A stretch of 64,000 nt of DNA. Origin: Buxus sempervirens. Taxonomy: Eukaryota; Streptophyta; Magnoliopsida; Buxales; Buxaceae. The position numbers and the translations under genes are program-made. The stretch is from contig OX387190.1 in assembly GCA_947561395.2 (NCBI GenBank), positions 16,238,858 through 16,302,857 on the forward strand. Reading direction: 5' to 3'. The notes below the pieces were generated by a model that saw only the letters and a list, made by a program, of their open reading frames with translations, was not told the DNA's origin and ran no database searches. Below, piece after piece: positions 1,777 through 60,240 of this stretch. Each line of letters opens with the position of its first letter. Positions within the stretch are counted from its first letter, which is position 1.

Positions 1777-4131
1777 TGTAACGCCCCGAACCCGGGTCAG
1801 TGCAAAACCGGCACCCGACCCGAACCCGGTTCGCTACTGTAACAACTCGAATTTAGTTCAACAACCAAATCCGAGGTGTTACTGGCCCATATCAAATATA
1901 TCATCAATAATATACCGGACCAAGGAATTAAAATCCATTCACTTTATTATACTATCAGAGTTGCGGAAACAAGTATGTGCGGAAGTGTAGTTTAAAATCC
2001 TCAAATAAACATTTAAGTTGATCATCAATCATTAATATCAAAGTCTGGTAAAATAAACTGGTTACTATCTCTCTCATCTCTCTAGTACATCAAATCCAAA
2101 TGAATAATAATCTAATCAAAAGTACTAAGTCTATATCAATCATCCACCTCAAACAAGATCCGGATAATAGTAATCCTCCGGTGTATACTCAGCTACCTCT
2201 CCCTGGAAATCACGAAGATCCCCCTCTCGTATATCAGCTGAAAAATGAAATGAAATTAGGGTGAGATACGAATATCCCAGTAGGTAACACATGCATGATT
2301 AAACAATTAATATAAGTAAAGTAACAGTTAATGCACGATTAAGCAATATCGACTAATCAGGCTCGTATAATCATTCATATCATTCATGAATACAAAACAG
2401 TTTGATACACAATTCTAGAAATGAATTTCAGCAAGTTCTAATATAAGAATCCAATATCAAGATCGATAACATAATTCATACTTTGCCAGGATGAACTAAG
2501 CAGTTGCATCCAGCCAATATCCCAATCACATGCCTCCAGCATGTATATAATAATAATATCAAGTGTTGTGATTTCAGTGTCATTTGTAGGACTCACAAAG
2601 ATAGATAAACCTTTTGAGATGATTCTTAACCAATTGCTATACCACCGTGCGACTTAGGAGCAATACTACTAATGATACTCAAGTCCCATGCAGCGCAGCT
2701 TAGACAAGAGCCGTAGTCACTGACTTATTGCATACGTACCCATCAGAGTTTGCATGTACCACCAACATGCAGCATCAGAATCAATACATGGAGATGGTCG
2801 CTTATCTACATGTACAGGGAATCACCAACGGCTCACCGGGGTGTCCCTCCAGACATAGGACCTTCCTACACAAACTAACTTGCAAAGGAAGCGTGTCGCA
2901 TATAGGAGTAACTCAACCCAAATGACATATCCCTTAGCTATCTAGCTACAACTATGGATCTATAACCAGCTATGCCCATTAGACTCCAAAATTCCCTAAA
3001 ATATAATAATTCTATAAGGGTTGGGGCCTAGCGGCATATAAAGGTTAAATCAGTCAATTACTTCAATATTTGGTCAACTGAATTTTGAATTCTCTTTATA
3101 AAGTTTTCTGGTTTATAGTGTCATTTAGAAGATGTTCTAGTAATTAAATACTAGTTAGGTTTTCCAAAAACTAGGTTTCTCCATTTCTTTCAAAGTTTGG
3201 CAAGTAATGTCCTAAATACCTTCCTAATTTATTTTTCTGTAAAACAGGGAATTAGATAATTTATTTCAGTCTTAAAACATCTTATTTAATCATTAAAATT
3301 GTCTAAAAATAGTTAGGAATTGAATCAGGGTGTGAAATTATGAAAATCTGCAAAATTTGAACAGAGCGCCTAGGATCGCTCAGGATCGCCCCGGTGGTCT
3401 GAAGTCGGCGGTAGTTCAAAATCGAACGCCGACGATACATCTTCCAGCGATCTACGGCGGTCTTCAGTTTATAACGAGCGCCTATGATCGCCGAGCACAG
3501 TCGAGGTTGGCGGTCGTCGAAAACGAACAGAATCAGTTCCAAAACATGATTTTTCTCGTCTAAACTCATTCTAACATATTTATAACATGATTATCTAACT
3601 ATATACATCATTACATATCATAAAAACATGCTTTTGCGATTAAACGGACGTAAATACAAATCAATCGAATAAAACAGTGTCACCTACCTCTTTCGTGCGT
3701 GGTTTCTCTCCCTCTTCTCCAAACAAGAGTTCTCACAGGTGCGAGGTAATCCCTGGACGATGAAGAACACAACCCAGCACTCTTCCTTCTTCCTTTTCTT
3801 CTTCTTCTCCTTCAGTCGCTCGTTCGTTCAAGGTTGTCGCTTGCGGCTGTCGAATACAAGCGAAATACGAACGTGTAATGTTTTAGGTTATTAAACTAAT
3901 ATTTATACTCTCCGATCCCATGTATCTCCCATACACAAAACTCCATACACACGCCCAATCAGAATACATACCTCGATATCTCATGATCGGTCAGTCAGAT
4001 CTGCGTCTAATTCTGGATCTACGCTAATTAGATCATCGCCTACAATAATAAAATATTTCCATCAATTATAACTCCCAATAATATTATTTATTAATTTAAT
4101 TTATTATTTAAGGAAAATTTGGGGTTTTACA
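1777..4131 (-). mobile_element. solo LTR, family A, TSD AGTGG
   Basis: The unit begins TGTAACGCCCCGAACCC and ends GGGGTTTTACA; both ends match those of the plus-strand element at 20641-23973 when inverted. AGTGG flanks it directly on both sides (1772-1776 and 4132-4136). The length is 2355 bp and no open frame of retrotransposon type is present. TG...CA ends and a 5-bp TSD fit a solo LTR. It carries a GC-rich island (3360-3500), a donor-like site read minus at 3687, a hairpin at 2263-2278 and a TTTTCAG at 2238-2245 (minus). An inverted near-copy of its first 250 bases lies at the right edge of the window (63795-64000). Confidence 0.88.
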
Positions 4132-8060: not shown

Positions 8061-9814
8061 GGATGTCTTAGCTTAATTTTTTGAGTGTTTTGAACATCCC
8101 TTCTTGTGTTCTACGTATAGAACAAGAGAGAAAGAGAGAGTGTAGAGGACTTGGAAGCTCGGTGAAGAAAAAGAAGAAGAAGGAAGAATATTGAAGAGAA
8201 GTTGTGTTTATCCATTAAACATGTAAGTAGCAAACCCTTCCAACTAAAATGAATTTACTAGACTTTCGTATTTCTCTCTCCTAGGGTTTGGTTAAATTGG
8301 AAATTCACTTGCATGTTGGTTTTTGCTTCTAAAATTCGTAGAGTTTTAATTGTATAACTATCTTGTTTTGTTTTCTATTGATTTGTCATGGATTTCCAAC
8401 CTATATTGATCACATTTCAGTTTTTGGTTTAAGTTTGGTGGGTTGAATGAGGTTTCATGTGGTTGGACTTGTGTTTATATGTATTGGATGGATTCCTGTT
8501 TTGGAAGGTGTTTTTGAGCATGTTGGGATGTTTTATGATCATCCCATTTGGTGTTGGAAATGTTAGAAATGGTTTGTATGGATTTAGTGTTGGAAAATAG
8601 CCAAAAAAATTCTAGAACCCGAGCTTGCGATTAATCTTGAGCCAGAACACCCAAAAATAGTCATTGTAAAGGCTAATCGCGAGACAGGATTTGTCCAGGC
8701 GACTAATTGCGAATCAAGATTAGCTTGGCGATTAATCGCGAAGGTAATCGCCCAGGTGCAATTAATCATGAAGCTAACCGTGAGCCCTGTTTTATGTTTC
8801 CATTTACTTAAGTATTTACATGTTAATAAAGTTTCACCCCCCATTTGGAACCACTAAAAATACTTCCAGGACCTAATTCCTTACCAATAAAAAGTCAACC
8901 TTCCAATTCGTACCTAAAATTCTAATTTTGCCCAATTTTTTTTATATCAAAAACCACTTTTTGAGTTTGATACCCAAATGAAGGATTCAGAAGCCCATAA
9001 AATTCCATAAAATTTTTCTACCCTTCATTTGACTACGATCTAAATTTGAGGCCAAAACTCCTAGTAAATTTGTCCAAGAAAATCATATACCCAAAAAATC
9101 ATATACTCAATATCGAAAACTTTTTGTCTCAGAATCCATTGATTTTTGATATGGTGACCTTATTGAGAATTCTAAAACTATCCCACTCATCTAATATGTG
9201 TTTAGTGGATTTTACAGCTATCATTTTGCTTGATTGGGATTTATGAAAATAAGGTTGAGATCTCTTATGTAATTTGACAAGGTGCTTAGCCTTAGTTTGA
9301 TTTATAGTGAATGGGTAATCTCACTTGGCCTTGGTTGAATGGCAGTGGATGCATAATTCCACATGGCCCTGGTTTGTGTTTTGTGGACTTTGTGGCATAT
9401 GTGTTTTACTTTGAATTGACTTTGGCTGGGAAGTAATTATTACTTTTTTTCACACTTGTGAGTATTGATTTGATTTGGTAAAGGTATGATGAGTTCTCTT
9501 ATGTGATTTGACTAGGCACCTGGCCTAGGGTTTGATTGGCAGTGAATGAGTAATCTCACTGGGTAGTGGATGAGTAGTCCCACTTGGGTGTGAATGTGTA
9601 ATCTCACTTGGCAGTGAATAAGTAATCTCACTTGGTTTGTGCATTGAGGCATTGGTTCTAGTAAAGGATGTGAATGGTTGGTTTTACATTATGAGTCCTG
9701 CCAAGATATGCTTGTAGTAAATGATTGGGTCTATCGAACTAATTATGTGTGTTATTTGATTTAGACTTTTTGACTTGAGATTATACCTTATATCTAAGAA
9801 TATTATCATGATGT

Positions 9815-12276: not shown

Positions 12277-12880
12277 GATGTCATAAACTTGCATAAACTG
12301 CCTCTATTCATGAGTTCCATATTTAATATGAGTGAATGTTATCATGATGTTATATGAATTGCATACACTGTTTCTATATATGCATGTTTGCTGTTTACTA
12401 GGACTTTAAGTCTCATGCATGTTTTGTTTTACCGGATTTGTTTTCAAATCCTCTATGTGAGCACGATATTGGGGCAGAGCTAGAGGGAGAGTGTGAGTAT
12501 AGGCCTGAGGACTACTACCGCCCATAGTAGGGTTCTCCATGTGTTGTTGGTTTTAGTTTTTTTTTTTGAAATTGTAAATGGGAATGTAATAACTCTCTTT
12601 TGGATTACGACTTTAGTATGTAATTGTACATATGAGAGAGACATTGTGAGTATTTAGTTAACCCATTTGTTATACACAGGTATCACATCTTTAAGATTAT
12701 TATATAGGTGACTTTTGTTATATGGAAATTTTTATTCCATACTTCTTATGTTTATTTGCACTCTGATGAGTACCATGTAATTGCCCTTGATTGTATCAAT
12801 TAGGTTCTTTTGGGCCCATAAATAGGGCTCGGGGACGGGTCAATGCCCCGCATGGGCAGACCCGGTTCCGTGGCGCTACA

Positions 12881-15340: not shown

Positions 15341-15347
15341 TATAAAG
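15341..15347 (+). promoter_or_regulatory. TATA box candidate for antisense PMD gene A
   Basis: TATAAAG, 76 bases upstream of the chosen ATG (15417), followed by a pyrimidine-rich leader (TCTTCTCTTCTTCCC). The gene would be transcribed away from the 3' LTR, antisense to the retrotransposon genome. Confidence 0.45.
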
Positions 15348-15416
15348 TACCGTAGCCGAAATTTTTACTTTCCTTGTCTATTTCGGCTATTGTCTTCTCT
15401 TCTTCCCTTTTCTTCA

Positions 15417-21700: not shown

Positions 21701-24700
21701 ACCAGATTTTGGAAGAAAAAGGAGTTGCAGAGATGGCCGACTAGTCAACTTCGAACGGTGAGATAGGAAGATCCAACCGTTGGAATGGGCTGAACTTTTA
21801 GGGTTTTGTTCTACTCATGGAGGACCTCAAACTGAACGGTGGAAATCTAAATTTGAGAAGTTTAGAGGGGTCCGGTTGAGCTCCAAAAACGGGCACCGAA
21901 GATGTTCTGAAAAATCTGGGTTCATCAAAAAGGCAAGTAGCAAACACTTGAAACTGGAGGAATTGCATATTTTCTTGTGTTTTGATGATTGATCGTATTG
22001 GTTCTTAAATTGGATTTCATTGGAAAAGTTAGATTATTATAAAGTTTCGATTTGGTGATTTGAATCTCTTTTTAAGAATCAAGAAGAATGTTGTTCATGG
22101 GTGGGTTGAATCAAAAAGAAACCCTAGTTAAATTTTAATTACCAAGATGTGAGTAGCATTGTTTTAAAATTGAGGATTTGAGTTTGTTCGTGATTTTATC
22201 CTGATGCATGAGTAAGGTTTATTCGTGAGTTATTCTGAGAGATGAGTGATTTACTGAGTTTCTGGAAGAATTTCGTTCTTTGAGCATGAGAGTGAATTAT
22301 AACTTAAATAGAAATATGTTTAGATTAAATTCAAAACTACTTGGGATGTATTCTGGGGATATTAGGAGACTACTGGAATAGTTACAGACCGAAAAAGATC
22401 GGCCAGAGTCGGAGATCTGGAAATAACAGAGAGTCGGAAAAGGCTGTGAGCATCCGCCCACTTGGCGCTCACTGGTGCTCACTTCGGGTAGTAGGCGCAC
22501 CTTAAATATACACTATCCACCGAGCTCGCGCCCACTTGGCGCTCAGCTCGCGCGCACTTAAAAACTATACGCGCATCTCGCGCTCATTTCCCGCTCACTT
22601 CCCGCCCACTTCGCGCCCACTTGAAATTGAGTAGGCGCATACCCCAATTTTAGCCCTATAACTATCCGCCGACCTTGCGCTCAGTTCAGGAGGTGAGCGC
22701 ATGGTCAAGTAAGCTTGCCGAATTGAATTTTTGACTAAACCAAGTGGTGTTTGATGATTTGAGGGTTAAACCACTTAACCAATCACTTGTTTTGGGACTT
22801 TGGAATCTATATTACACATTCAATTAATAGAGAAAAATTTAGTGGAAATTCTTAAAGGCTCCCAAGGTTAAGTTTAGGTTATTTGTAAGTGATGTACTGG
22901 GTACCGAAACACTAGGAGTTCCTAGTTAGTTTCCTCTTTGTTTTTATACACTGTTTTGATTGAGAAATTATTAAAGTCTGGTTTCACTTGTTTGGAAAAT
23001 TCTGAATGTATTGTAAAGATTTTCTTGGTGTGAATAACTGAGTTTTATTTCCAAATGGCATGTGTTACGAAATTTGGAAAATACTGGAAGTACTTGAGGT
23101 ACTGTTTGGTCCAGAGGGACAGGTGGTGAACTGTGATGTGTTATACAGGATGTGAAATGTATTGTTTTATTTTGATGTTGGAATTGAGATTATACGATGA
23201 TTTACTGTTTTGGTTTAGCTTGTCCTGGATCCATGTCTAAGCTTAGTAATGTGATGGTATTGTTTATTGATGTAATTGCATGGCCTTGTGTGTTGCCACA
23301 ACCGGTGTAGAGCAGCCAGAAACCCTGACTAGGCTTGGTTGTCAATGCAGAAACCCGGGGAGTAGTCCTTCATTGGATGACGAAACCCTGAGTAGGCCGT
23401 CATTTCAGAGTGTCCGAAACCCTGAGTAGGCCGGAACTGTGTACATGGAGGTGTGGACTGTCTACTTGGCATGTCAATTAATCAATTCAAACAATAGTCA
23501 TGACATTGACCATTCGATGTTTTATCGGTATTGTTATTGAGATACGATTTGATAATATTAATGGGATTGGGTTTAAACTTTGGAATTATCCTTGTTAATG
23601 TTGTTATTGGTTTAATCGTACACCTCATGACTTATTTTATATAAACATGGACTGATTTCATGCATGCACCTTGCTACTTGTTGAGATTTATTCTCACTCC
23701 GGTTTCTCCCATTTTTCAGGTACTCTTGGTGAGGACGTCAAGTTGTGGGCTAGTTGTAGCTGGGTAGTCTATATAGATGTAGGATTGCTCATATAATTGA
23801 AATCCTTTTATATTATAATTGTTGATTAATAAAGAGATTTTAAATTCAAGTTTCCGCTTTTACTCTGATTATAAAGTTAGAAAAAGTTTTAAATTATTCC
23901 ATATTTAGTTGCTTTTGTTGCTTTCCATAACACCTCGGGTTTTGGGAATTGGACCCGGAACCGGGGCGTTACACGACTCCTCCTCGTGCATTCCATTATG
24001 TTAGTCCTCCATCTCGTCCTTCAACGAACCCTGCCACCTCCATGGCCGATCCATCGCCTAGTGCGTTTAGGCAGGTTCCTCTCATTCCTTCTCCTGGCCT
24101 TGATGAAGCCAGCCCGTCCACTTTCCCTGGCGCTGCTTTATCGGATTCTTCTTCTGATGAATTACCTGATGAGCCAAAGTCCCGGTGGTCGATAAAGATA
24201 ATTTTAGACCTCTTCCTGGCACTTGCTTTGGATTCGTCAGATCATGTTTCACGGAGGTAGACCGTTGTCTTGCCTCCCCAGAATTCCATGATCTTCGTCC
24301 AGCATTTCTCTCAGGTTTCGACAGTCGGGATGAACTCCGCTCTTTAGTTTTTCGTCGACCTAAAGATCTTTCTGATGATGAGCTAGCTGAAATCCGATTA
24401 CTAATTTGTCAAGCCATGGTGACTAATTCTCATGGGGATCCTACGGCCGAAGGTCGGCTAATGTCTATGCTTGGATTTACAGCGCCGTGCCGCAGCTAAG
24501 AGAAGCTATGGACTTTCTTCGTTCTATCAATATCAGATGTTCCGACTTTTGCCGAGAAATCCGTGAGGTATTCAGTTATCATCGTCAGCTGGAAGCTTTG
24601 AGGCGGACTCTATGTGTCAATTCTCTCAATCAGGCCTCGATTTCTGGTAGTCCATCGGCTGCTGCTCCGGCCAAATTATCTCGACTTCGATCTGAGGAAC

Positions 24701-27382: not shown

Positions 27383-27391
27383 TTCTTCGAG

Positions 27392-31405: not shown

Positions 31406-31470
31406 TCCGTGCCATTTACAAGCTTTACCCTTGGCCGCTACATTGGCTGGGATAAAAGGATGGTCTTTGG

Positions 31471-32055: not shown

Positions 32056-32220
32056 TGAGTTTCCAAATAGTCTAAGTCTGAGGAAATCATTACCGAACGC
32101 CTTTCCACATTAAACCGTAAATCGGCCAATGTGTTCAATGGTAGACTGTTGACCTTTTTCTTGAAAAAAAGTGAATTCAGGAATCTTGTATCCCCTGGGA
32201 AACTCAAATTGCTGGTCAGT

Positions 32221-32868: not shown

Positions 32869-32887
32869 GGTCCCACCGGGCGTGCCA
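32869..32887 (-). other. primer-binding site of the complete Tat element
   Basis: Read minus, TGGCACGCCCGGTGGGACC lies eight bases inside the 5' LTR. The leading TGG suits pairing with a tRNA CCA end. I recall the same PBS type in other plant Tat elements but cannot check the tRNA here. Confidence 0.8.
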
Positions 32888-32895
32888 AAAAGGGA

Positions 32896-33987
32896 TGTTG
32901 CTCCGAAATTGGGCCGATGTGGACACGTGTCTGTGTTGATGATGTGTCTCTACGCGGGCGTGCCAGTATCGTTTGATACAAATGATTTCGGGTCAATCCC
33001 TGACTCCCGGCACCTGTTCCGAATCTAAACCGGGATCGGTTCAGTCGTACTGCAAGTCACCTGTAATAAAATCGGTCAGGCGATGTTATGAAGACTAGGG
33101 GTTCGGTCTTCGTTTGGGTTCTTGTAAGTGTTTGAAAGCGAAAGCAACTAATGGCACACAAATCCTTTATTATAAAATCGGCCGATGGGCCGAAAGCGAC
33201 AATAGATAATCCTCAAAAAGGAAACAAAAAGTAAAAAGAAAACTGATAGGGCTTGCAGGACCGGCCTATCCTGGTCTTATAGCCGTAATCGGGTATGAGC
33301 ACAGGAGGAAGGGGTGGCTGCTAGCAAAGCCAATTCAGGGGGTTCACCTTGGATTGCTGCTTACCCGAAAATACACAAGTCACCTGGCGTGATCAGAGCG
33401 AGTCTCGGGACCGGCTGCTCGGGATTCTGTAAACACAGAACTACGAGTCAAGGGCGGCCTCAACTTACTCTCCGGTGGTAGGATTCTGGTGTTAATCGGA
33501 GTAAAGAGGGGTCTAAGATGTCACTGCGACTGGAAGCAGTGAGAGAGGTCCTAGTTTATCCTTTTGGCTACAGTGTAGGAGAGGGGATAAAGATCACGGA
33601 TGATCAAAATAATATAATAACCGGTTGTAGTTGGATGGATTGTGTCCTCAAGTTCTTCGAAGTTATGCCTTTATAGCTGATCCTTGATGGTTGCTCAACG
33701 TCCCACTGTTGCACGATCTTCATAGTGGTTAGCCGTCTTCAGTCTTCTACTACAGAAAGATAACCGGTCGACCACGATCTTTGAACGACTGATAGCACGA
33801 TCTTCAGATAGTTGTGGTTTTGTCGTGTTTGGCTTGCGTGTTTTTAACTGTACTATTGGTTTATGTGCATGCTGACGTGGCCTGTCCAATTGTACAAAGC
33901 CTATGTGCGTTGATACCATGGCCTAAGTAAGCCACATAGGTGCCACGTGGCCTTCTCTTATTCTTTGGTTTGTATAGGGTGTAAACA
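32896..33987 (-). repeat. 5' LTR of the complete Tat element
   Basis: Direct repeat of 14090-15182 with the same TGTTGC...TAAACA ends on the plus strand. Followed outward by the TSD CAAGC. Confidence 0.96.
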
Positions 33988-37580: not shown

Positions 37581-39231
37581 TCAATAAGAAGTAGAGTGTC
37601 TAGAAGGCTGGAAATGCTGATGTTGTTGCTGTCGTCGTCTCTCAAGCATGTGAACATATCGCCTCCACGACATGCGCCCTGTGTACTGACCTCTGTAATG
37701 ATGCACAACCTCCTCATACTCATCCTGATCTAAAGCCACAACAAAGCCCACAGGAGGACAATCATCATAATACTCCATCATAATAAGAACACCAGCATCC
37801 TCATCCTCATCCTCCTCCTCCTCCTCTGCTACGACTGGTGGAGGATAATAACCATACGAATATGGGATAGCTGGGACTGGCACTGGCACTAGCACTGGGA
37901 CATACCCATATCCGTATGCAGCTGGATATGGAGCTGGTGCAACTGGATAGGAGGGAAATAACCCATAGCTGTCAGATGTCTGAAACTGCCCTGGATATGG
38001 ATATGCATATCCTCCATATTGCCCGCTCTGATCCCCATAACTACGTGAAGATGTGCTGCTAGATCCCTCCATGTCCATACTCATAAATGATCGAGACATC
38101 TCATCCTCCTCTTGGGCACCAATCCTTTCCTTCCCCTTACCCCGCCTCTGAAAAGTACGTGCCTCTGGATCTGACTGACCACCCTGACCGTATCGCCCTC
38201 CATGGTGGGAGTCCTGGGTGGCGTGTGTGTATGCTGCCTCCCCAGTGAAAGAACTAACCCCTGGCCCATGTGATTGTCCTCCACCTCCCTGATGATCATT
38301 TCCATCATCATCGTCATCATCATCATCAGACCCTCCACCATCCCCAATATCTCCATCATTGTCATCCTTGGAGTCCGACTCTCTACGCTCAACTGACTGA
38401 ATTGGGACTGAGGGCATCGCTGCTGCTGTAGAAACTGAAGGGGGCACTACGCTGGTATCTCTATCGAAAGAGTCAACAGAAGGAAATCCCCTCTCCTCCT
38501 CCATAACAGCATCAACATCAATCCCCATCTCTGCTACGGCACGAGCAACGACTGAACTCAGCCCACCATCAGGCTCATCTAACTCCACAGTCCTCACCCA
38601 TTCTGAGAATGGGTTGTCGTCATCAATCCAGGTGCTGCATAGGATGTCCAAAGGGTCGTCAACATATGCACTACTACTCTGTGTCTCGATCTCCAGCTGT
38701 TTCGCTCGTAATCTCATGTTATAGTGACAAAAAAACACGAGCTTTTGCAGCTTCTGATAGGCCAGCCGATTCCTTTGCTTTGTATGAATCAACACAAAGG
38801 TGCTCCAGTTACGCTCACAAGCAGATGAGGATGCAGTCTCAACGAGAATCCGATATGCAAGCTTCGACAAAGTAGGAGCAGAAACTCCGTACATGGCCCA
38901 CCACTCGCCTGAAAAGTATAATGATTTTCAATAAGCATAAAATAAATTTAGAAATTCTAAATGATTTACCAAAATGTAGTAAATTATATACATGGCATCA
39001 TCGTACTCCGCGAGGCAATGGCAGGCGTCATTCCAAATGATCCCATTGCATCTCTAAACATGATCAACTGCAAGAGCATGTTCAGAATTTAGTAAAAATT
39101 GAGGAAAAGATTCCAAATTACAATTGATAGAGCACTTATTTATTATTTATATATAATTTACCTCATTGCCGAAATCTGCCTGCCCGTCAGAATTGGGATC
39201 AAGGTGGGAATAAACCATGTGCACAACTATC
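37581..39231 (-). pseudogene. hAT transposase, C-terminal part with dimerisation domain
   Basis: Minus-strand exons: one ends NSDGQADFGNE before a GT at 39161 (intron 39068-39161); a short exon reads LIMFRDAMGSFGMTPAIASR (intron 38909-38991); the last exon starts GEWWAMYGVSAPTLSKLA and contains ILVETASSSACERNWSTF and KLQKLVFFCHYNMRLR, the hAT C-terminal dimerisation domain. After it comes a long acidic, Gly/Asp- and Pro/Tyr-rich tail (DDDDDDDD, VPVPVPAIPYSYGYYPPP, EEEEEDEDED) ending at 37581. The tail is much longer than usual for the domain. The upstream coding region is cut by the LTR at 39237. Confidence 0.88.
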
Positions 39232-43950: not shown

Positions 43951-45584
43951 CACCCGCTAGCTGATCACCTGAAAACAGTATGTTACCTGTCGAAGTGTCA
44001 AATGTCAATTCCAATTTGCAAACAATTAAACAACTAAATATTTACCAAAAAATTTTAATAAAATGTAAGACCCTGATTATTTTGTGGGGTTATCCATGGT
44101 TTATTCATTCTGTTGATATACATAAACTGTGTTTATCAGGTGTTTAGTGTGGTTTGAGGGCTTCGCCCATGCTCGCATGTACAGGCGTTATATAGCCAAA
44201 TTTTCGGAAGAATATTTATATTTATCGTATGATTTTTATTGTATGGTGTCTACGTATTTATTTATTTAATTAAGATGTCGATGCCGCGAGCATGTGAGGT
44301 TTTGGTGGGCGAGCGCGCATCGGATAAGAGAAAAGAAGGATATGCATCCAACGGCGTATTTCTCGTAGGGTAAAAATGGGTAAAAATTTCCGAAGGGGGA
44401 AAGTAGGGTTTGGGTTGTAGGGATACGCGTAAGTTACGGAGGAAATCTTCATTGGAGTTAGAGCTGTGGCGACTGCGGCGGAAATGGCGATTGGGGTTAT
44501 TCTCAGGAAGAGAAAGAGTCTGAGGAACTACTAGAAGCTCATTCGAGTGGGATAAAGGCGGGTTTTCTCTCTCCAGAACAGCGAACAGTTCGACTAACAT
44601 TTAGGCTACCATTTCGTCTTCGCGCATTCGGGATCGCGATCGGCCGATTTCGAGGACGACTACCATTCTGGGATTATCGCGGACACGAGTGAGTGGCATT
44701 GTTTTAGCACCGAGGTTTTTCGGATTTATTTGTATATGCATTGAATTATATCATGGTATTAAATTGCATGAATGTTAGGGTTTTCTGGGAAACACAGTTA
44801 CGAAGGGTTTTAGTTACGGAGGGTTTTGGTGTTGCACAGTGGAATTGGGGATAACTAGGAAGTCATTTAGATTAAATCCAAAATTGGTTTGGATGTATCC
44901 TGGGACTATTAGGAGGCCATATAAGTGGTCACAGAGTGAAAAACTACAGCCAGAGTTGGATTTCCGGCATTAACAGAGACCTGGAAATTGAACTGGGTTA
45001 CCGCCTAGCTACCGCCTACCTAGCGCCCACCTAGGAGGTGAGCGCTAAGAAAAACAGACCTGGCGCCTAGCCAGCGCCCACCTCGCGCCTAGCTGGCGCC
45101 TACCTCCAATTCTCGCGCTTATCTCGCGCTTTTCTCCCGCCCGTCTGGCGCTTAGCTAGCGCCTACTCATCCACGGGTGAGCGCAAGCTGAGATTTATCA
45201 AGGGGACCTACCGCCCACCTGGCGCCCACCTCGGGAAGTGAGCGCCCAGTGGTTTTTCATACAGAATCCTAAATTTCGGAAGGGCCAAGGGTGCTCTGGA
45301 CAATAGGGGTTCTTCAACCATTCGACCAACAAATAGAATCCGCCATTAGAGGAAATAAATATTACCGGGAAGAACAATGTAGATAGGTACTAGTTTTAGT
45401 ACAAGCTTATGAAGTAGGTGTGGAGAAATATTTCGAGAATGTTCGGGATGTTCACATATTAGTGCTTTATTCTAGTCCTTTTGAAACATGCATTGCTTGG
45501 TACCTTATTTGGTTTATCGAACCCTGTTTGATGGAAAAGTTGAATGAGGTTGTAATTATTGTTTATTTGATTTCTCGTGTGAGT

Positions 45585-45697
45585 TTGTGTTCTGGTTGGA
45601 ACACTTGTGTGAATTTCTGTTCTGGTTGGAACACTTGTGTGAGTTTCTGTTCTGGTTGGAACACTTGCGTGAGTTGATGTTCTGGTTGGAACCACGG
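45585..45697. repeat. 28-bp tandem repeat, four units
   Basis: Units of the type TGTTCTGGTTGGAACACTTG plus TGTGAGTT, nearly identical, inside the solo LTR. The core CTGGTTGGAAC is itself partly palindromic. Confidence 0.92.
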
Positions 45698-45839
45698 GTG
45701 ATGTGTACTAATGCAGAGTTTTAAACAGTTAATTATCGGTTTGGGTTTAGCTTCCCATGGATCCTTGTTAAGCTTAGTAATGTGATGGTATGTGTTGGTT
45801 GGTGTAATTGCATGGCCACGTGTGTTGCCACGACCAGTG

Positions 45840-45965
45840 TAGAGCAGCCAGATACCCTGAGTAGGCCTGGTTGTCAGTGCCGATACCCGGAGTAGGCCGG
45901 CATTGGATGACGATACCCTGAGTAGGCCGTCATTTCAGAGTTTCCGATACCCTGAGTAGGCCGGG
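45840..45965. repeat. tandem 'CCCTGAGTAGGCCG' units
   Basis: Four units of GATACCCTGAGTAGGCCG separated by variable spacers. The related LTR at 20641 has the same units at 23320-23440 (CCGAAACCCTGAGTAGGCCG). Confidence 0.88.
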
Positions 45966-46511
45966 AACTGTGTACATGGAGGTGTGGAGTGTCTACTTGG
46001 CATGTAAATTAATCAATGTAACCATATGCATGGCATTGACCTGGTTTGAGTTGTTATCGAAATTTACGCTGTTATTATCATTGGTTATTTGTCGAAGCAT
46101 GTCTTATAACTGTGTTAACTATTTTATGCATGCATGTGTCACTCGCTGGGATATTCGTATCTCATTCCCTCGTTGTTACTTGTGTTTTTCAGATACTCGT
46201 GGTGAGGTGCCTACAGGGGTAGATCCGGCTGATACATATAGGGAGGAGGATTATTACTACCGACCTTAGTCCAGCAGGTTACTCGGTCTTAAACTGTTAA
46301 GTTGAATGTTGAGGATTGTAATAAGATAGTAAACTTGGGACCATTTGATGATTTCATAACTTGCCTGGATAGAAATGTTGAATTGTGCACTCTGATATGA
46401 TATAAAGGCGGGTGATTATCCAGCGATCACCATCATTGAGATCCTTAACTAACCCCTGGGAGACGTGTTATATCTTTAATGAAGAACACGGATCCGGGGC
46501 GTTACATAAAA

Positions 46512-48067: not shown

Positions 48068-50031
48068 GGTGGGACAGTAATAGCTCTATTCTTATACCCG
48101 GATGCCTTCTCTTTTCCTTTCTCCCCACTCTGGCCTTCACACCGGAAGTCGATGGCTCTGAAAACAAAATCAATAGAACAACTTATGAGATGAAGGTCCC
48201 AGTAAGCAACACAAGCATGCTCATGAAAACACAGTTCATGCTAATATCATTCGGAATAAACCATGACATGTGAATTGTTAAAAAACAACAGTTAAATCGT
48301 TGACAATTTAATATTAATCAAAATGGTATGATTCCATACTGAAGTGAACAAGTCAATCAATCAATAAACAATATTTCAATGAGTCTCAATTTATCTAGGC
48401 AGCTTAATATATAGCACCAATGACCACATCAAACTCCACTGATTCCACGTGGTGGGTTAGGCATCAAACACCGATTCCCATGGTGGTGGGCATCAGCCAC
48501 CGATGTTGCTTAGTGCTGGAATAAACAAGATGATACAAGAACAATAGTAACAGAGTCATGGCACTATATACAAACCTACCCACTTAAGATTTATGGATCT
48601 ATAACTTAAGGTTTGTTCATTATGCAATATCCTTTAATTCATTAAGTTGGTTACTCTTTAACCAAAATTATAACTCATGCCACTCACGCATGCACAATAA
48701 AGGGTAGCCTCATAGCCTTACCCAAATACGCTTTGGCCAATGCCCTTTTTATCACCTCATGGGACCGGGCCACTGCCCTCCATAATATATCAACTTTATC
48801 AAGTAATTGGGTCAATGCCCTTCATGTCATATCAAATAACCAGGCCAATGCCCTTCATATCGTATCACATGCTACATAAACAATTAATAACGACAATTTG
48901 TTCTCATGATAATAAGTCAAGCATTATTTACACACTAGTCTGGGCAAACTAGACCCCAATTCATTAGGAATATTCATAAAATTCCTTTGGCTTTGATTCG
49001 CCACTTCCAAGGATCATTTGGAAGGTGTTCCAAGTGGTGGAATTAAAATATATTTCTTCTATGGTAATTTGGAACCAAAACTCTTTACAAAACCTAGTTC
49101 AGTAGAATGTCCCAAACTCTTGTATAATTTGAATTTTGAGATAATTCTAGTGTAAACACTTTCGAAACACCTAAATCCTATTTATACATAGGTTGGATTT
49201 GAATAAAGATCAATCCGTAGTTGAAATCACTTCAAAATCCTCAAAATGGAGTTTTTTTGTGTTGGGCTCTTGACCTAGTGCTTGAGTGTCCAGACAGACT
49301 ATGGAAGATGAAGCTCCAGGAGGTAACGTTCGGCATCACGCTTAAGCGTCGGGCTGGGCGCTCGGCTTAACCAAAAATCCAACTCTTGGGTTTTTGAATT
49401 TAAAAAAAAAAACATAGGCGGGGCGCTCGACCTTGCGCTCAAGCAGCCACGCGCGCCTGGCAGTTCTAAGTTTGGGACAAGATGGGCGCCTAGCATAGCG
49501 CTTGAGTGCCATGCCGAGCGCCCTGGCGATTTTCCAAGGTCGCATCTCACGCGATTTTTTTGTGGTTTTTCTCAAATCTAAACCATTTACTACTGCTTTT
49601 ATCTATCAAATCCACATAGGATGAGCTAATAATTAGTCTCTATCTAACCATTCACGCATGCTTATTTCATTTGCAAATAAATCAAGAAAACCCAAATGCC
49701 CTAATTCCAAAACCTTTTTTAGAACAAGAAATCAAACAAGGTTTTGGTTTGAAGAGTGTTGCTTACCTAATTCAAGCAAAAGCAAACTATTTGCTCCTAA
49801 ATGCAACTCACAAGCAGCTCCTCTTAAGCTCCTTGGAGGTTTCTCCACAATCCTTCCAACTAGAAAAGAAAACGGCAACTTGTAGACAACCCAAATTGCA
49901 CTAAAATATGAGAGAATAATAAAAATGTGTTTAAAATATCTTAATTGAGGTTTGACAGGTGCCAAAAGCTCAAAATCAAACAAGAAATGTGCTGCCCATA
50001 TTTAGCATGCGGATTTTGATAGTTTTGTTCT

Positions 50032-50475: not shown

Positions 50476-52855
50476 GAGGGTCTCTCCTCTTGCAAATGGC
50501 TGAGAATCTGAAGATTGAGAGCTCTTGAAGAAGAAGGGAAACTCTGCCCAACTCTCCACTCAAGCACTCAAGCAACTAAGGTAAGCTTCTAAGCTTTTCT
50601 CGTCATTTTCTACTTCATTTCAAGCACTCTCTACTTCTACCTTTTTGTAAATAAAGCCTTGGGTGTATTTGTAATCCCAAACCATGCTCAAAGTACCTTA
50701 AGCACCCTTTCTAGCCGTAAAACGTGAAAAGAGAGCAAGGAGAAACAAGTATTGGAATGCATCCTTAGGTTTAGAACCCTTTGTGATGAGATAATTGCAT
50801 GATTTAGTGTATGCTTGCTGTTTGTATGTGTTTTGATTTCAAATCTGGAGGAATTACATAGATCTATGCTCTATATAGTATTAGATCTCAATTCTCTCCT
50901 AAAAATCTGATTTCCTACACAATTTCATACACACATCACTTGATTTTTGTCAAAATAGGCATAGATCTTAGATCTACTATGCTCAATATAGTAAATCTGA
51001 TATTAAAGGCCTTAGAACAACTTCTCAGGACTTTGTGAGTTGATTTCAAGTGGTTTTAATCTTTTAGAGAAGACTTCATGGTCTAATTTCTCTTATTTGT
51101 GCATTTTGCATCAATTTTGGTAGATTTGGCTCTTCCTCTCCAATTAATAAGAGATCTGAGCCAAGCCCTTGCCCTAAATCTTTCTGAGTGTTTTTCAACT
51201 CATTTCAAGTGATTTCAAATCAAATCATGTTGATCAAATATACACACACATTGTTTTGGCTTGGTGTTACTTGAATTCTACAGATCTGGACAGAACCTGT
51301 ACCCTGTCTTGGATCATGCATAACTTCATCATATGGATGAATTTTTGAATGATTTTAGAGACATGTGATAGGTGAGGATGTTTAGTTTAAACCTGTAAAA
51401 TTTGAGCAATTTATATGTAGCCGATGTTTCAAACCATTTGATTAAAGTTGATAAGTCAGATCAGATCAGATTGCTGAACTTGTCACTTTGATTGAGCACC
51501 AAAGGCTCATTTTAACTCCGATTTGAGTGATTTCAATTTCTGAGTCTTACTTTATGAGTTTATTTTCAAATCCAATTGGTTTCAAGAGTTTTTACTTTAA
51601 TTCGAGCTCCGTGTGCTTGATTGAACCTGTACTGCTCAATAGCAGATTATAGAATCTATCTATGATCCTCTAAGCATATTTGAGAAAGAACACAAGTCAC
51701 AAATGGATGAAGTTTTGAGTGAGGCTTATTTCATTCGAAAGATGGCATTTCATACTTCATTCACATCAGTTTTCCAGGATTTATATGGAGCCAATCTCCA
51801 CGAATAGGCTTTCAAAGTTGGCTACTCACCATTTTTACTAGTTTACAACAACTTTGAACAAGGGTATTTTCTTTGATTTCAATCGGATTTAATTGAAATT
51901 TCACTAAGTCTCCTACTTCATATAAGCTTTCAAATGGCTTTGGTTTCATTCAATTTAAGTTTGATTTGAATGACTTATGGTTGGTTAAGTTTTCTAAGTT
52001 TAAATGGCTTAATCTTGAGTCGATTTTTCCAAATTTGTTCTAGTTCGCTTTTCTTCAAGTTTTACCTTGATTTTTGTTTACTTAATCATGAAGTCCTAGA
52101 GGTAATATATTCATAGAGAGAGAATCCAAAATCTATTGGACTACTCATGTGGAGGAATTACACATTTATTTGTTTACTTTACTTGTTTTTTTAAGTGATT
52201 TTTATTTACATGCAATTTTCAAGCATGAATAGCATAAGGCAACTATCTTGTATGGATGAGTAGGGGTGCCTAACACCTTCCCCTACTCATAACCTAACCC
52301 CTTACCTGATCTCTGGATTTAACCATGAAGTAGAGCTACTTGAGCTCTATTTTTGCTTTTTATGCTCACCTTGGTGTCCATTCACACCTTAAATTGAATG
52401 GTGGCAATTCCATGTTTTTTAGAACTCCGTGTGACGATTAGGAGATCCCGTAGGTGATTTTCCATGTCTCACACAACTCTATCTCCAAGCCTTGGTTCTC
52501 CTTCTCTTTAACAAGAGCTTCCCCCAACTTTGCCCAACAAAAGGAAGAGAATGGGGAAGAGAAGAGAGTGTAGAGAGAGAAGAGAGTGGGAGGAGAAAAG
52601 TGTAAAACCCCGACCCGGATTATATCTTAATTATTAAGATTAATTATCTAAAGTGTGATTATTAGACTAATTAAGTATTTGTGTTATGAAGAGGAGGTAG
52701 ATGTGGATTATTCTTAAGGATTTAGAGGAATCAATTGAATGATATGAAAGTTATTAAGGTAAGTTTAATTAATGCTATTTCTCAATTCCAATTGTTTAAG
52801 ATACTCTCCAATTAGCTTTAATGAATTGGAAATCAAATTCTGAAAATTTGGACTT

Positions 52856-54435
52856 ATGTGTACCTAGAATAATTCCCAAGTATACCCATGGTATCCCAAA
52901 ATATACCCAAGGTACCCTCCCAAATACCACTAAAGTACCTCTTGTATTACCCAAGGTACTCCCATTGTATACCCAAAGTACATCCATGTACTACTCAAGG
53001 TACCATCTAAGTATACCTAGAGTACACCAAAGTATTTCCCCAAAGTACCGCTCAAAATGCCTAGGGTACGCCCATGTATTACCCAAAGTACCCGAATGTA
53101 TTACTCAAAGTATATCCAAGTGTTACCCAAAGTACCACTCAAGTATACCTAAAGTATCCCCTAATTATCCCTAAGGTACCCTCTTATATTGCACAAGGTA
53201 CCTCTCAAGTGTACCTTAAGTATCTCCCAAGAATGCCCAAATAACCTCTTAAGTATACCCCAGGTACCCCACTTTTATACCCAAGGTACACCCAAGTATT
53301 ACCCAAGGTACCACCCAAGTGTTACTTAAAGTACCCCCCAGTTATACCTAAGGTACCCCGCTTGTTTCCCTAAGGTACCCTACCTTAATTGCTTAAGGTA
53401 CCCCTGTGTTCATCTAAGGTATCCCCTTGTGTTTGCCTATAGGTACCCCTGTGTTTACCTAAGGTATCCCCTTGCATTGCCTAAGGTACCTCACATGTAT
53501 ACCTAAAGTACCCCCTTACATTACCTAAGGCACCTCACTCATATTGGCTAAGGTACCCCCTGTTTTATCTAAGGTACCCCATTCGAATACCTAAAGTACC
53601 CCCTAATTATACCTAAGATACCTCATTGGTATTGCCTAAGGTACCTCTTTATTTTAACTAAGGTACCCTACTATCTTACTTGAAGTACCCCTTGTTTAGC
53701 TAAGGTACATTCCCTTATACAGCTAAAGGTACCCCCTTTATATAACTAAAGTACCTCCAACATACCTAAGGTACATCCCCTATATTACCTAGGGTACACC
53801 CCTTGAATTTCCTAGAGGTACTCCACTCACATAAGTAAGGAACCCTCACTGTTTTGCCTAGGGTACACCCCCTATATAGCCAAAGTACCCCATTTGTCTC
53901 ACTAAAGTAACCCCTATATAAGTAAGGTAAACCCCCCACTATTTTCCCTAAGGTATAGCCCCTTATATAGCTAAGGTACCCCCCTCTTGTAGCTAAGGTA
54001 CACCCATTCTATAACTCAGGTAACCCTCTTATATTACTAAGGTACACCCCTCATGCTACTAACGGTACACCTCCTTGTATTTCCTAAAGGTACCCCCTGT
54101 ATAACTAAAGTACACCCCTCAATAATCAAGGTACCCCTCCTCAATATAACTGAGGTACACCCTCCTAAGCTTATTCAAAGTTTACCCCTTAGAATAACTA
54201 AGGTAAATCCCTTGGAATATCAAGGTACCTCCTCAAATAACTAAAGTACCCCTCATATAATTGAGGTACCCTTCTGTGTTAACTGAGGTACACCCCCCAA
54301 GCATTCCTAAAGCATGCCTTTTGAATTGGCTAAGGCAAACACCCCATTTAACACTAAGGTACTCCACTTAATACCAAGGTACCCCACTCGAATAACACTA
54401 AGGTACCCCTAATATGCCTTAGGTACACCCTAGGG
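52856..54435. repeat. degenerate 20-24 bp minisatellite, about 70 units
   Basis: Units with core CCTAAGGTACCCC and spacers such as CTTGTATTA. GGTACC palindromes recur throughout. It is about twice as long as the related array at 7252-7990 and ends about 60 bases before the TATA box. Confidence 0.93.
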
Positions 54436-54492
54436 TTTTAGTTGAACAAAAGCCTTGTTTAGGGGCAGATTTGAAAGACCCAAAACTTGGGC

Positions 54493-54500
54493 ATATAAAA
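54493..54500 (+). promoter_or_regulatory. TATA box of the minisatellite LTR
   Basis: ATATAAAA in GGGCATATAAAAGGATGCCC, conserved at 8053 in the related LTR. Confidence 0.65.
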
Positions 54501-55869
54501 GGATGCCCTAATTTCTAATTAAGGGTTTGAAAACCCATTTCTCTTGTCTTGGACGTATAGAACAAGAGAGAGAGTTGTGGGAGCTTGCTTCAAAGCCTCA
54601 AGAAGAAGGAGAAGAAGAGGAGAGCTAGGAGAGGAGGTTGCTTCTCCATTAACAAGTAAGTAGCAAACCCTTCCAAACAAAATGAATTACCAAAATTCGT
54701 ATTCTCTCTCTAGGGTTTGAGTTATTTGAAGAAATGATCTTGCATGTTGCTATTTGTTTCTAAAATTCGTAGGTTTTGATTGTATAATGCTCTTGCTTAG
54801 TTTCCTAATGATTTGCCATGGATTTACAACTCTATTGATCCTATTTTATATTAGGGTTTGAGATTTGTGTCTTGAATGAGGTTTCATGCGTTTGATTTGT
54901 GTTCATGTAGATTTGAGATGAATCTTTGTTTCAGAAAATGTTTTTAAATGTGTTGGGATGTTTTGTAATCGTCTACTTTGATGTTGGAAAGGTTGTAAAG
55001 GATTTACATGAGTTTTGTGTTGAAATTAGTCAAAATACTTCAAAATCCCGACCCCGCGATTAATCCTGAAAGTTGGTGATTAATCCTGAGCCAAACCCCT
55101 AAAAACAAGTCTCTGTTATCTTAAATCGCGAAACAGGATTAATCCTGGGCGCGCGAACCTTAACACTCAACGCCCGAATATTGAACTAATCGCCCCTGGG
55201 CGATCAATCCATGGGCTAATCGTGGACCCTGTTTTTGGAGTTGTTCATCCTTTTTCTCTCCAACCCTTTGTCAAACAACCCAAGCTTCTCGCATAGCTCC
55301 CTTATTACATGAAAGACATTTAAGTAAATGTCCTGTGTATTTATTGCTCCATTTACTTAAGTCTTTACATGTAAATAAGGTTTTACCCCCCATTTGGAAC
55401 CAATAAAAACACTCTCAAGGCCCAATTCCCAACCAATAAAAAGTCAACTTTCCAGTTTGTGCCTAAATTTCCAGTTTTCCCGATTTTCAAATAAGACCAC
55501 TTTTTGAGTTTGACATCCAAATCAGTGATTCAGAAGCCCAGAAAATTCTAGATGATTTGTATACCCTCCAATAGACTACAACCAGAAATGGAGCCCCAAA
55601 CTCCTTGTAGATTTGTCTAGAAAAATTCGACACCGAAAAGTCAACGTTTTCAACCAGACTTGGAATATTTTTGAGGTCCAAAACTTTTTGTCTCGGAATC
55701 CATTGAATTTTGATATGGTGACTTATTTGGGATTTTTAAGATCAACCCACTCATCGAAAATGTGGTTTGAGGATTTTATAACCTTCGTTTTGATTTGGCT
55801 TGGATTTATGAAAGCAATGTTGAAAAACCCTTATACGATTTGGCAAGGTTTTGGCCTATGGTTTTATTG

Positions 55870-56020
55870 GCAGTGGATGGGGAATTCCACTTGCCCTTGG
55901 TATGGATCGGTAGTGGATGGGGAATTCCACTTGGTCTCGGTTGATTTAATATTGGATGGGGAATTCCACTTGGCCTCGGTTGATTTAATAGTGGATGGGG
56001 AATTCCACTTGGCTTTGGTT
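55870..56020. repeat. tandem 'GATGGGGAATTCCACTTGG' units
   Basis: Four units, about 35-45 bases apart, each with the palindrome GGGGAATTCC. The related LTR has weaker AATCTCACTTGG units at 9300-9640. Confidence 0.88.
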
Positions 56021-57328
56021 TAAGCACTGGTTTTACTCTTGGAACTGAATGGTTTGTTTTGATTTATGAGTCGTCTAATTGGACATTGTTCTTGGTGTGG
56101 ATCCACAGTGAGTCTAATTAGTGTGTTGGTATTGGCTTGTTAGCTTTAATTTCCTTATCCATATAGCATTCCACTGTGGGGAATCAGTGAGGCCTTCTCA
56201 GGGAACAGAGGGCTGCGGCAACCCCCCGTCGCGGGGAACCGGCGGGAGTCCATGCGATTCATCGAGCAGTGGGTGGGGAATCCCACTTAGTCTGGATCCT
56301 TGGTTAGGTTGACTACTTGCCAGCCCATACGTGGGTACTCCGCTTGCTGAGATGTCCCTAGCTAAGCTTCTCTCTGTAAGTCGTGTAGGTGGCAATGGAT
56401 ACTGGTCATTAATCTAATTTACAGACATGCTAACCACGAGTCCTAACAAGACATGTTTACAGTGTTTGATCATAATTGTTGATTTGATTGAGATATTTGA
56501 ATTGGAATTTCTTTTATATCCGATGATTGAGATATTTGAATTGGAATTTCTTTTATATCCGATTGAACTGTTTTGGTTTTGCATTTAGTACTATATAATT
56601 GTGAATATCATCATGATGTTATAATAACTGCACAAACTGTTTCTCTACATGCATGTTTGCTGCTTACTGGGACTTTAAGTCTCACGCGTGTTTTGTTTTA
56701 CCGGATTTGTTTTCAGATCCACTTGGTGAGCCGCGTACCGGGGCAGTTATTGAGGGTGAGCTTGAGTAAAGTCTAGAGGGCTACCATTTCTACCCATAGT
56801 AGGGTTCTTATTATGATGATGTATTTTGTCTTGGGAATTGTATATGGGATGTAAATATTATCTTTGGACCTATACTCCTGGAAGAATCTTTTGTACTTAT
56901 CTGTATATTTTGGGAAGATCATTGTGAATGGTTAGTTGCCTTAGTTGTATTTTGTATGCACAGATATTATGGTTTGGAGATTATAGTACAGATGATCTTT
57001 TGATTATATGGAAAATTTTTATTCCATGCTTCTTTAGTCATGCACTCTGATAACTACATTGTAAATTGCCTAGGAAATTGTGTTTATCAGGTTCTATTGG
57101 GCCCATAGGTAGGTCTCAGGTACGGGTTGGTGATGTGATAGGGCAGACCCGGATCTGGGGCGCTACAAAAAGAGTGTGGGAGAAGAAGAGGGTTTCCTTT
57201 TTATACTCAACAAGCTTTTCCCGAAATGTTTTAAAGGCAAGCTTCCAAGTTTGCCCCTCCTCTCCTAAAACACATATAATTACCACCATGCCACTCTCAC
57301 TTCTTTTATTTTATAAGTCCTTGACTTA

Positions 57329-57855: not shown

Positions 57856-58109
57856 AACCATTTGTGAGATTAATCATCTTACCTATTCGTCTGTGGGCTG
57901 ATCTGTTAGTCATAGTCGGGCTAGGAAAAACCTGATTAAGAGTCTCCATGCCACACCTAGGGGGGATCCGGGTATTGACTATCAAAGGGGGGTGACCTTC
58001 ATCTTTCAAAGAAATGAAAGTCTTCTGTGATTCAATTCTCTGGAGGCAGCATATCCTCCTCTAACATTCCTTTGCCTCTTGCTGGGGATACCTAGTGCAT
58101 ACTGCCAAA

Positions 58110-58810
58110 ATGAAAATATTAGCCTGGAATTGTCGGGGCTTGGGTCGAGCCCCAACAAGGCTCCACCTACGTAATCTTTTGCGTACTATCAGGCCAAATT
58201 TAGTTTTATTGTCTGAAACTTTGATGAATAAAAAAGCTTTTGAATGTTTTGTGAGAAGTATGGGTTTTTCTAACTGTTGGTGGTATGCTGCTAAGGGCCA
58301 TGCTGAAGGCTTTTGCGTGTTGTGGGATCACACCTGTAAAATTAATATTGAAGATGAAGAAGAATGGTGCATCCACATGTGTATTATAGTTGCCAATCAA
58401 ACCTTTGAAATAACTTTTGTTCATGCCAGTTCAAACATCCAAGTGCAAGCTATCCAATGGGAGTACCTGAAATCTATTGAATCCAAATGCTTGGCTCCTT
58501 CGTGTGCTATAGGATACTTTAATGTGGTATTATATAGCTATGAAAAGCGAGGAGGCGACCACATCTAGGTGCGTACAGCTCAACTATTCTCAAAATTTAT
58601 CAATGATTTTAATCTTCTGAAATTGCCGTGTAAGGGTATGAAGTTTTCTTGGTGTAATGGTAGATGGGGGATGGGTAGGATTAGAGAAAAAATTGATCAG
58701 GTGTTGAGTTTTACCTAGTGGTGTCTCCTTTTCCCCAATGCCATTCTTTGGCAAGACCCAATTGTGGGTTCCGATCATGCTCCATTATGCCTGAATCTTA
58801 ATAATGACCA
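58110..58810 (+). pseudogene. LINE endonuclease domain
   Basis: The ATG at 58110 starts MKILAWNCRGLG, the standard opening of plant LINE ORF2, with LVLLSETL carrying the catalytic Glu. The later block reads AIGYFNVVL where the family has GDFN, so a catalytic Asp is replaced by Tyr. After the stop at 58566 the frame resumes (LPCKGMKFSWCNGRWG) and reaches VGSDHAPLC, the conserved SDH motif, near 58785. Confidence 0.85.
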
Positions 58811-58929
58811 TTTCAACAAAAAAAATCAGATTTGAGAAATTTTGGATTGAAGAGAGAAATTGCCATCAAATTATTAGTGAGAATTGGAGTAACAACAGAG
58901 GTAATTGGCAGAGCAAGCAAAATCAGTTA

Positions 58930-60240
58930 AGATGTAGGCTTAGTGTGTAGAACAAAAAAATGTTGGAGATGTAAATAAGAGAGTGGATGAGATATATGGG
59001 GAGTTGAAAAGGGTTCAGAAAATTATGGAGAATCATGAGGACCCTGTTATGGTCATTAAAGAGCATCAACTTCATAATGATTATTTTTTTGTGCTTAAGG
59101 TGCAAGAAAATTTTTGGATGCAGAGGTCTCAGATCAAGTGGCTGAAGGAAGGAGACCTCAACACAAATTTTTTTCATCTCTCTACTAGGAACAGGAAACA
59201 CAGAAATAAGATTGTCGCTCCAAAATGACCATAATAAGGAAGTTGGAGAGATTGAGGAGATTGAACAAATTATTGTGGACTACTTCCAAGGCATTTTCTC
59301 TTGTGATAATAGAGAAAAAGAATTATCTCTTCTTAATTAGCTACTTACCTGTATCACTAAAGCAGATAATGGGCTGTTGTCTAGAACTGTTATAGAAAAG
59401 GAAATATGATTAACTGTGAAGAAGATGGGAGCCTTAAAAAGTCCAAGGCCAAATGGTTTCCAAGGGATATTTTATCAAACTTACTAGGATATCATTAAGG
59501 AAGATGTGTGTAAAATTGTTTCTAATTTTTTCCTTAATGGTTTTTTTGATAGAAAATTGAATTATACCCATATTGTTTTGATCCCTAAGACTGATTCCCC
59601 AAGGAGAATTAGTGAGTTTAGACCCATTAGTCTATGTAATTTCATTTATAAAATCATTTCTAAACTTCTTGTTGATAGACTTATACCTCTCATGAACAAA
59701 CTTATCTACCCCCAACAATGTGGCTTTGTTCTTGGGCATGTCATTCAAGATAATATTTTTGCTGCCCAAGAGTTATACCACACTGTTAAGAGCAAGAAAA
59801 AGTGTAAAAATCAGGGTTTGTTTGCTATGAAACTCGATCTTGCTAAAGTCTATGATAGGCTCAACTGGAACTTTATTGAAAAAACTCTTACTGCTTTTGG
59901 TTTTGATAAAAAAAAATTTTCAAAGATGATAATGTTTTGCATATCCTCTATCTCTTATAGTGTGCTTGTGAATGGTAAGCCGTGTGGAAATTTCAATCCT
60001 ACTAGGGGAATCAGACAAGGGGACCCCCTGTCCTCTTACATCTTCATATTAACTCAACAAGTCTTATCATTTGCCCTGGTTAAAGTTGAATAGGAAAATT
60101 ATATTCATGGAATTAGAGCTTGTAGACTGATTGAATCCATTAGTCATTTGCTCTATGCGGCTAAGTTGCTTTTATTTGGTCGTACTGCTATTGTTAATGT
60201 TGAAAATTGTATGTAAATCACTAACTATTTCTGTTATATG
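58930..60240 (+). pseudogene. LINE reverse transcriptase domain
   Basis: SQIKWLKEGDLNTNFFHLST near 59130 is the usual pre-RT block. The RT segment (59506-60093) contains HIVLIPKTDSP, FRPISLCNFIYKIISKLL, FAMKLDLAKVYDRLNW and TRGIRQGDPLSSYIF. The active-site block, in frame after a TAG, reads LLYAAKLLLFG where the family has F/Y-ADD, so both catalytic aspartates of that motif are gone. Confidence 0.88.

Follow-up and report, generated by a model that had tools for sequence, protein, structure and literature searches.

Paired ends of a putative intron within the long terminal repeats of Buxus retrotransposons may let the element control its own RNA splicing

Six long terminal repeats (LTRs) in a 64,000-nucleotide stretch of the Buxus sempervirens genome (assembly GCA_947561395.2, contig OX387190.1, forward-strand positions 16,238,858 to 16,302,857; hereafter the window) each carry a putative intron whose first bases can pair with a stretch immediately upstream of its branch-point-like sequence. 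The position of this intron, wholly within the LTR, is well supported by its sequence signals. The complementary arms have changed together among families, and a second candidate acceptor lies at the start of gag. The helix, a hairpin at the branch site, and the gag-start acceptor together suggest RNA-level control of splicing rather than a mere spliced leader, and the retrotransposon may exert this control over its own RNA through the paired intron ends. We give about an even chance to a specific form of this proposal, in which a U2-type leader intron is locked by RNA structure so that the unspliced part of the transcripts would be the template for reverse transcription and the spliced part would be translated.

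Splice-like sites in the six LTRs

An earlier note, written from the window sequence alone, had proposed that these six LTRs contain a complete intron with a donor shortly after the TATA region and an acceptor in TTTTCAG. All six donor-like sites are present at the positions given there, and we name each copy by its donor. The context AAGTAGCAAAC is common to the 54656, 8223, and 21933 copies, the last of which has a GC-type donor. TTTTCAG is found in five of the six LTRs; in the 8223 copy it reads TTTTCAA, a decay that had already been recognized, although the AA lies at 12446-12447 rather than at about 12452. The spacing from the promoter held in part, given that a plain TATAAA lies 162 to 220 nt upstream of the donor in three copies (54656, 8223, and 3687) but is unclear in the other three.

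U2-type introns have a GT or GC donor, a YTNAY branch site 18 to 40 nt before the AG, a pyrimidine tract, and a YAG. The putative LTR introns, about 1.3 to 2.3 kb long, carry these signals in the form of a donor, a CTCAY branch-like site, a tract that is usually free of AG, and a CAG, with the AG decayed in one of the six window copies. In ten introns the branch-like A lies 24 to 33 nt from the AG, and eight of the ten have no intervening AG; 26% of random 26-mers from the window are AG-free by chance. Together with the covarying pairing described below, these signals give good sequence support for a complete LTR intron, which may be spliced. Scanned blindly for paired donor and acceptor sites, the window gave 10 matches compared to 2 to 11 in 20 shuffles, a number not above chance, so the case beyond chance rests on the pairing in the six previously listed copies and their relatives. 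The scan is what would be expected if T-rich LTRs were simply full of donor and acceptor look-alikes, but the covariation and arm-swap tests and a block conserved among family B copies make coincidence a very improbable explanation.

The putative donor is complementary to the flank of the branch-like site

The first 11 to 13 bases of the putative intron are complementary, in each of the six window LTRs, to a sequence 38 to 49 nt upstream of the AG. The complement begins exactly at the first intron base (G+1) in every copy, and the two arms of this helix, P1, are more than 1 kb apart. When scored against control stretches of the same intron, P1 ranks above all of them except in the 21933 copy, where it exceeds 153 of 159. 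The arms of the six copies pair at 66 of 66 positions with their own partners but at a mean of 58.5 after arm swapping, and only 2 of 720 permutations reach 66, namely the identity and the exchange of two sister copies. In a wider set of thirteen rows from about ten families, 140 of 143 P1 positions are paired, two-sided changes occur at 9 of the 11 pairs, and the covariation score is 0.521 versus 0.305 in shuffles, none of 500 being as high; slid registers pair only 18 to 50%. The covarying changes extend to the letters of the splice site, where, compared with the commonest pairs, there is C-G at +2 in family D (the GC donor), G-C at +3 in family C, and G-C at +4 in families B and I. The family labels A to E and I are our own assignments.

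The wider set is partially circular, given that six rows (L029, L051, L053, L055, L059, and L061) were located by searching for the pairing; the unbiased weight therefore lies with the six window copies and the B copies, which were not. The L047 row was chosen among ten B copies for its difference. L057 was dropped as a helix member because its "donor" sits in an apparent inverted copy of the acceptor module, and its row was left out of the arm-swap and thirteen-row covariation tests.

Among the window copies, the non-Watson-Crick positions of P1 comprise eight G-U and no A-C pairs. Symmetry at the DNA level would give equal numbers of the two, which indicates that P1 likely pairs in the sense-strand RNA. 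The same asymmetry bears on a DNA-level inverted repeat with no role in RNA, whether a pair of sites bound by a single DNA-binding protein or remnants of transposon inverted ends. A changing DNA-binding protein could also yield matched changes in both arms, but the G-U excess, the exact start at G+1, and the placement of the branch site and AG right after the 3' arm leave this account with hardly any probability; by eye, the arm borders of the 54656 copy also show no target duplication.

A local hairpin, P2, of the form T(G/A)(G/A)GA...TCTCA begins without a gap after the P1 3' arm. P2 folds locally in all six window introns, and its closing pair includes the A of CTCAY in five of them, the 8223 copy being without the two outer pairs. 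This arrangement is what gives force to the main rival to a lock, in which P1 and P2 stacked end to end would bring G+1 beside the branch-point A across more than 1 kb and thereby promote splicing from the donor to the LTR acceptor (AG1). Zero bases separate the P1 3' arm from P2, the closing pair of P2 contains the branch A in five of the six copies, the introns are long, and long-range pairings in some yeast introns do promote splicing. However, P1 occupies +1 to +6, which U1 and U6 need, whereas a pure bridge could lie next to the splice site; the yeast bridges are not known to cover the 5' splice site. We regard a bridge of this kind as possible but doubtful.

Separately, a palindrome resembling CATGCATG lies directly upstream of the P1 3' arm in many families (for example, at window positions 56645-56655), but not in L029, L053, or L059.

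The elements and a second acceptor at gag

The LTR ends could be placed in four of the six window copies (54656, 21933, 44689, and 3687; LTR coordinates in Table 1), each of them a solo LTR with TG...CA termini and a 5-bp target duplication. In the 676 Mb of genome searched, the A-family matches listed (at least 42) stand alone, except for three neighboring pieces at a single locus on C3. An LTR end was found in 17 of 20 fetched A-family loci, with an exact duplication in 15 of the 17 and a one-mismatch duplication in one, while L018 runs into a primer-binding site (PBS). Genome-wide, there are 467 junctions of an LTR end with the PBS and none in the reversed control; the PBS, TGGTATC[AG]GAGC, is presumably a match to tRNA-Met. 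In L018, an A-family element, the LTR leads into a gag open reading frame (ORF) with a zinc knuckle. One B-family element encodes protease, reverse transcriptase (RT), RNase H, integrase, and SH3_Tf2-1, with RT_RNaseH_2 and rve below the Pfam cut-offs. The gypsy domain order is read for gag from one A element and for pol from one B element; the search for a chromodomain, made in a single copy with broken frames, gave SH3_Tf2-1 and no chromodomain match. The elements are Ty3/gypsy LTR retrotransposons and may be chromovirus-like; the narrower label "Tekay-like" is our guess.

The start of gag was recognizable at 13 of 31 loci, and in 11 of the 13 a YAG lies 0 to 6 nt upstream of the ATG. In the B elements, the CAG of this second acceptor (AG2) directly abuts the gag ATG. 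AG2 has been lost by one base in L074 and L059, the gag start of the latter being read by eye in a broken frame. L018 contains 42 ATGs in the intron and 25 between AG1 and gag, whereas joining its exon 1 to AG2 would give a predicted leader of about 136 nt with a single ATG, a length that assumes a transcription start 32 nt past the TATA box.

GTGAG about nine bases past the AG, which the earlier note read as a possible tiny exon or second donor, is present in four of the six window LTRs but is not general, given that the PBS-linked loci L052, L053, L055, and L059 have GAGAG there. On this ground we rejected, as a general feature, a microexon of 9 nt between AG1 and GTGAG followed by a second intron to AG2. 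It is also disfavored by two B elements in which AG1 is not closely followed by a strong donor (L056 has GTGAG 7 nt downstream, and L062 none within 500 nt).

Several other arrangements of these LTRs were observed. At L054, L061, L070, L072, L073, and L075, PBS-linked junctions (mostly with linker AA) are followed by a common sequence with CCCATGGA and no recognized gag, perhaps a non-autonomous element with the same LTR ends. Inverted B-family LTRs lie about 7.0 kb apart (start to start) at C10:8740435-8749755 and C11:11016045-11025372, and their near-equal spacing perhaps reflects one copied composite. Two same-direction LTR-PBS junctions 7.2 kb apart (C1:25535563 and 25542760) resemble a tandem LTR-internal-LTR-internal array, in which an LTR of 2.35 kb would leave about 4.8 kb for the internal part.

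Conservation within families

The 54656-family alignment held 18 of 21 LTRs (20 fetched loci and the window copy), three having been dropped because the LTR end was not found. No site of the donor (0 of 9) or of the tract and AG (0 of 16) varies in at least two copies; such shared variants occupy 21 of 123 exon 1 sites, 81 of 299 sites past the AG, and 145 of 1669 sites of the intron interior. A comparison of donor and AG with their surroundings, suggested by the earlier note, came out in favor of conservation relative to exon 1 and the sequence after the AG, but not significantly so relative to the intron interior. Of the 13 sites of the P1 3' arm, one carries a shared variant: two copies have T in place of C there, so that G-U replaces G-C. 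Exon 1 of the ten B copies is variable up to about -5, after which all carry AAGAG followed by the 11 helix bases (identical in nine copies, with a G-U change in one); differences resume at +12 and from about +17.

Evidence against a locked intron

Several results weigh against the reading of a structurally locked leader intron. The absence of shared variants at the donor and at the tract and AG is not significant by itself against the interior and would not prove constraint, and, per site, private changes are as common at the donor (0.111) as elsewhere (0.114 to 0.132). In whole-intron ensembles of five of the six copies, P1 pairs are mostly at 0.8 to 0.99 in three, but P1 is near 0 in the other two, the 54656 copy included. 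Among seventeen PBS-linked loci, the acceptor module is present in 11 but was not seen in six (L054, L057, L058, L085, L087, and L088); L085, L087, and L088 belong to the L068, L082, and L071 elements, which retain AG2. Among the 11 loci with the module, five have a donor pairing over at least 10 bases and two have one with a single mismatch (L059 and L086), while the stretch searched held no pairing donor at four (L052, L056, L060, and L062).

Finally, the exact intron-less junction was found zero times in family B, compared to 1,900 intron-containing acceptor junctions. This outcome fits a spliced RNA that does not serve as template and equally fits an intron that is not spliced from the donor to AG1. 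The junction of exon 1 with gag was likewise found zero times in family B, with no count of intact AG2 to set against that zero. A different role for the fold would be as a packaging, dimerization, or 3'-end-processing signal of the genomic RNA, in which case the splice-like letters would be of minor or no use. Both arms are intronic and so would be carried by unspliced RNA only, no intron-less copy was found in family B, and foamy viruses use structure at the LTR donor to exclude U1 and allow polyadenylation (parts of PMC3694450). We nevertheless find a pure genomic-RNA signal unlikely, given that in every window copy the helix begins with the first base of the intron, beside donor, branch-like, tract, and CAG signatures, and that the second acceptor adjoins gag.

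Table 1. Positions of LTR, promoter, and putative splicing features in the window
Feature	Position	Strand	Remark
Solo LTR, family A1, TG...CA	52601..57167	+	Target duplication AAAAG
TATA box, 162 nt upstream of donor	54494..54499	+	0.3% minority letters in 54490-54510
5' splice site GTAAGT and P1 5' arm (intron +1 to +13)	54656..54668	+	
P1 3' arm, 54656 copy	56655..56667	+	
Hairpin P2, closing on the branch-point-like A (56684) of CTCAC	56668..56684	+	Local fold; branch site by consensus only
AG-free tract and candidate 3' splice site (AG1)	56685..56716	+	
Family A2 donor and P1 5' arm	8223..8233	+	
Family A2 P1 3' arm	12388..12398	+	AG decayed to AA at 12446-12447; insertion in intron (a nested LTR in the earlier note)
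Family D GC-type donor and P1 5' arm	21933..21943	+	LTR 20641-23973, target duplication CGACT
Family D P1 3' arm, pairs with GC donor	23671..23681	+	AG1 at 23719
Family C1 donor and P1 5' arm	44689..44699	+	LTR 44064-46506, target duplication TAAAA
Family C1 P1 3' arm	46136..46146	+	AG1 at 46192
Family B1 donor and P1 5' arm	3677..3687	-	LTR 4131-1777, target duplication CCACT
Family B1 P1 3' arm	2280..2290	-	AG1 at 2238
Family E donor and P1 5' arm	49756..49766	-	
Family E P1 3' arm	48202..48212	-	AG1 at 48158

Other features of the window

Two 1.1-kb direct repeats (97%) flank a 20-kb stretch at 14090-33987, which contains two Plant Mobile Domain ORFs and, on the opposite strand, pieces of RVT_1, RNase H, and integrase with an RVT_3 domain. 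At 58065-60093 and 37581-38927 there are LINE-like pieces on the plus strand (Exo_endo_phos below cut-off, RVT_1) and an ORF with a hAT dimerization domain on the minus strand.

Discussion

The spliced-leader picture of the earlier note is partly supported by our analysis, which adds three features that it had missed: helix P1 between the two intron ends, hairpin P2 at the branch site, and AG2 beside the gag ATG. In the lock that we propose, the intron would follow the promoter and so lie in R/U5 of transcripts starting in the 5' LTR. Both of its ends would be held in one conserved RNA fold, with P1 pairing bases +1 to +11 or +13 to the sequence just upstream of the branch point, and P2, abutting P1, usually closing on the branch-point A. 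Because this fold covers the bases for U1, U6, and U2, we infer a splicing lock in which those sites would stay hidden until the fold is opened. Some transcripts would then be kept unspliced, with the whole LTR leader and the PBS, and would serve as template. The remainder would be spliced at AG1 within the LTR or at AG2 beside the gag ATG and be translated; splicing would remove tens of upstream ATGs, and use of AG2 would remove the PBS as well. Given that both arms are intronic, the fold would also mark the unspliced RNA. A more speculative extension, in which we place rather little confidence, is that P1 and P2 form one continuous stack with the branch-point A beside G+1, pre-positioning the partners of the first splicing reaction across 1.3 to 2.3 kb, and that this amounts to a conserved switch encoded by the element between template and messenger in about 1,900 LTRs of one family.

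Parts of this arrangement have counterparts elsewhere. HIV-2 and SIV have a short leader intron in R/U5, and the Buxus introns are similar in lying whole within an LTR-encoded leader but differ in length; we know of no comparable long-range helix between 5' splice site and branch site in those viruses. Some yeast introns likewise show long-range end-to-end pairing, whereas in Buxus the pairing takes in the splice-site bases themselves and occurs within a transposable element. Among plant LTR retrotransposons, Ogre has an intron between protease and RT. Both Ogre and EVADE have functional introns, and the EVADE intron lies over the protease domain, outside the LTR (parts of PMC12786077). In foamy viruses, according to parts of PMC3694450, a donor within the LTR is bound by U1 and suppresses 5' polyadenylation, and RNA structure reportedly keeps U1 off the donor at the 3' LTR. 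The Buxus LTRs resemble this in having a putative donor with predicted RNA structure at it, but their donor is paired with a sequence over 1 kb further along, next to a branch-like site, the LTR holds a complete putative intron with its own acceptor, and the element is a plant Ty3/gypsy retrotransposon rather than a retrovirus. For barley BARE1, spliced and unspliced RNA pools are described as having separate roles, and spliced RNA is argued to be excluded as template (parts of PMC3735527). The lack of intron-less B copies fits such an exclusion, but it also fits an absence of splicing. The BARE1 intron, of 104 nt, lies just past the gag domain, and the same parts of PMC3735527 describe no LTR intron or paired splice site. 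A literature search, judged by titles, abstract openings, and parts of PMC11656987, PMC12786077, PMC7730604, PMC3735527, and PMC3694450 and leaving many journals uncovered, gave among the papers listed none that seems to report an intron within a plant LTR or a helix between donor and branch site.

These findings bear on how plant LTR retrotransposons split one transcript between translation and replication. A covarying helix that lies exactly over the putative 5' splice site and reaches to the branch-like site represents a testable candidate cis-switch, and its copies provide a natural series for studying splice-site sequestration across more than 1 kb. Leader introns may account for very long LTRs, and the solo LTRs that are common here are predicted to be able to serve neighboring genes as a promoter with a spliced first exon.

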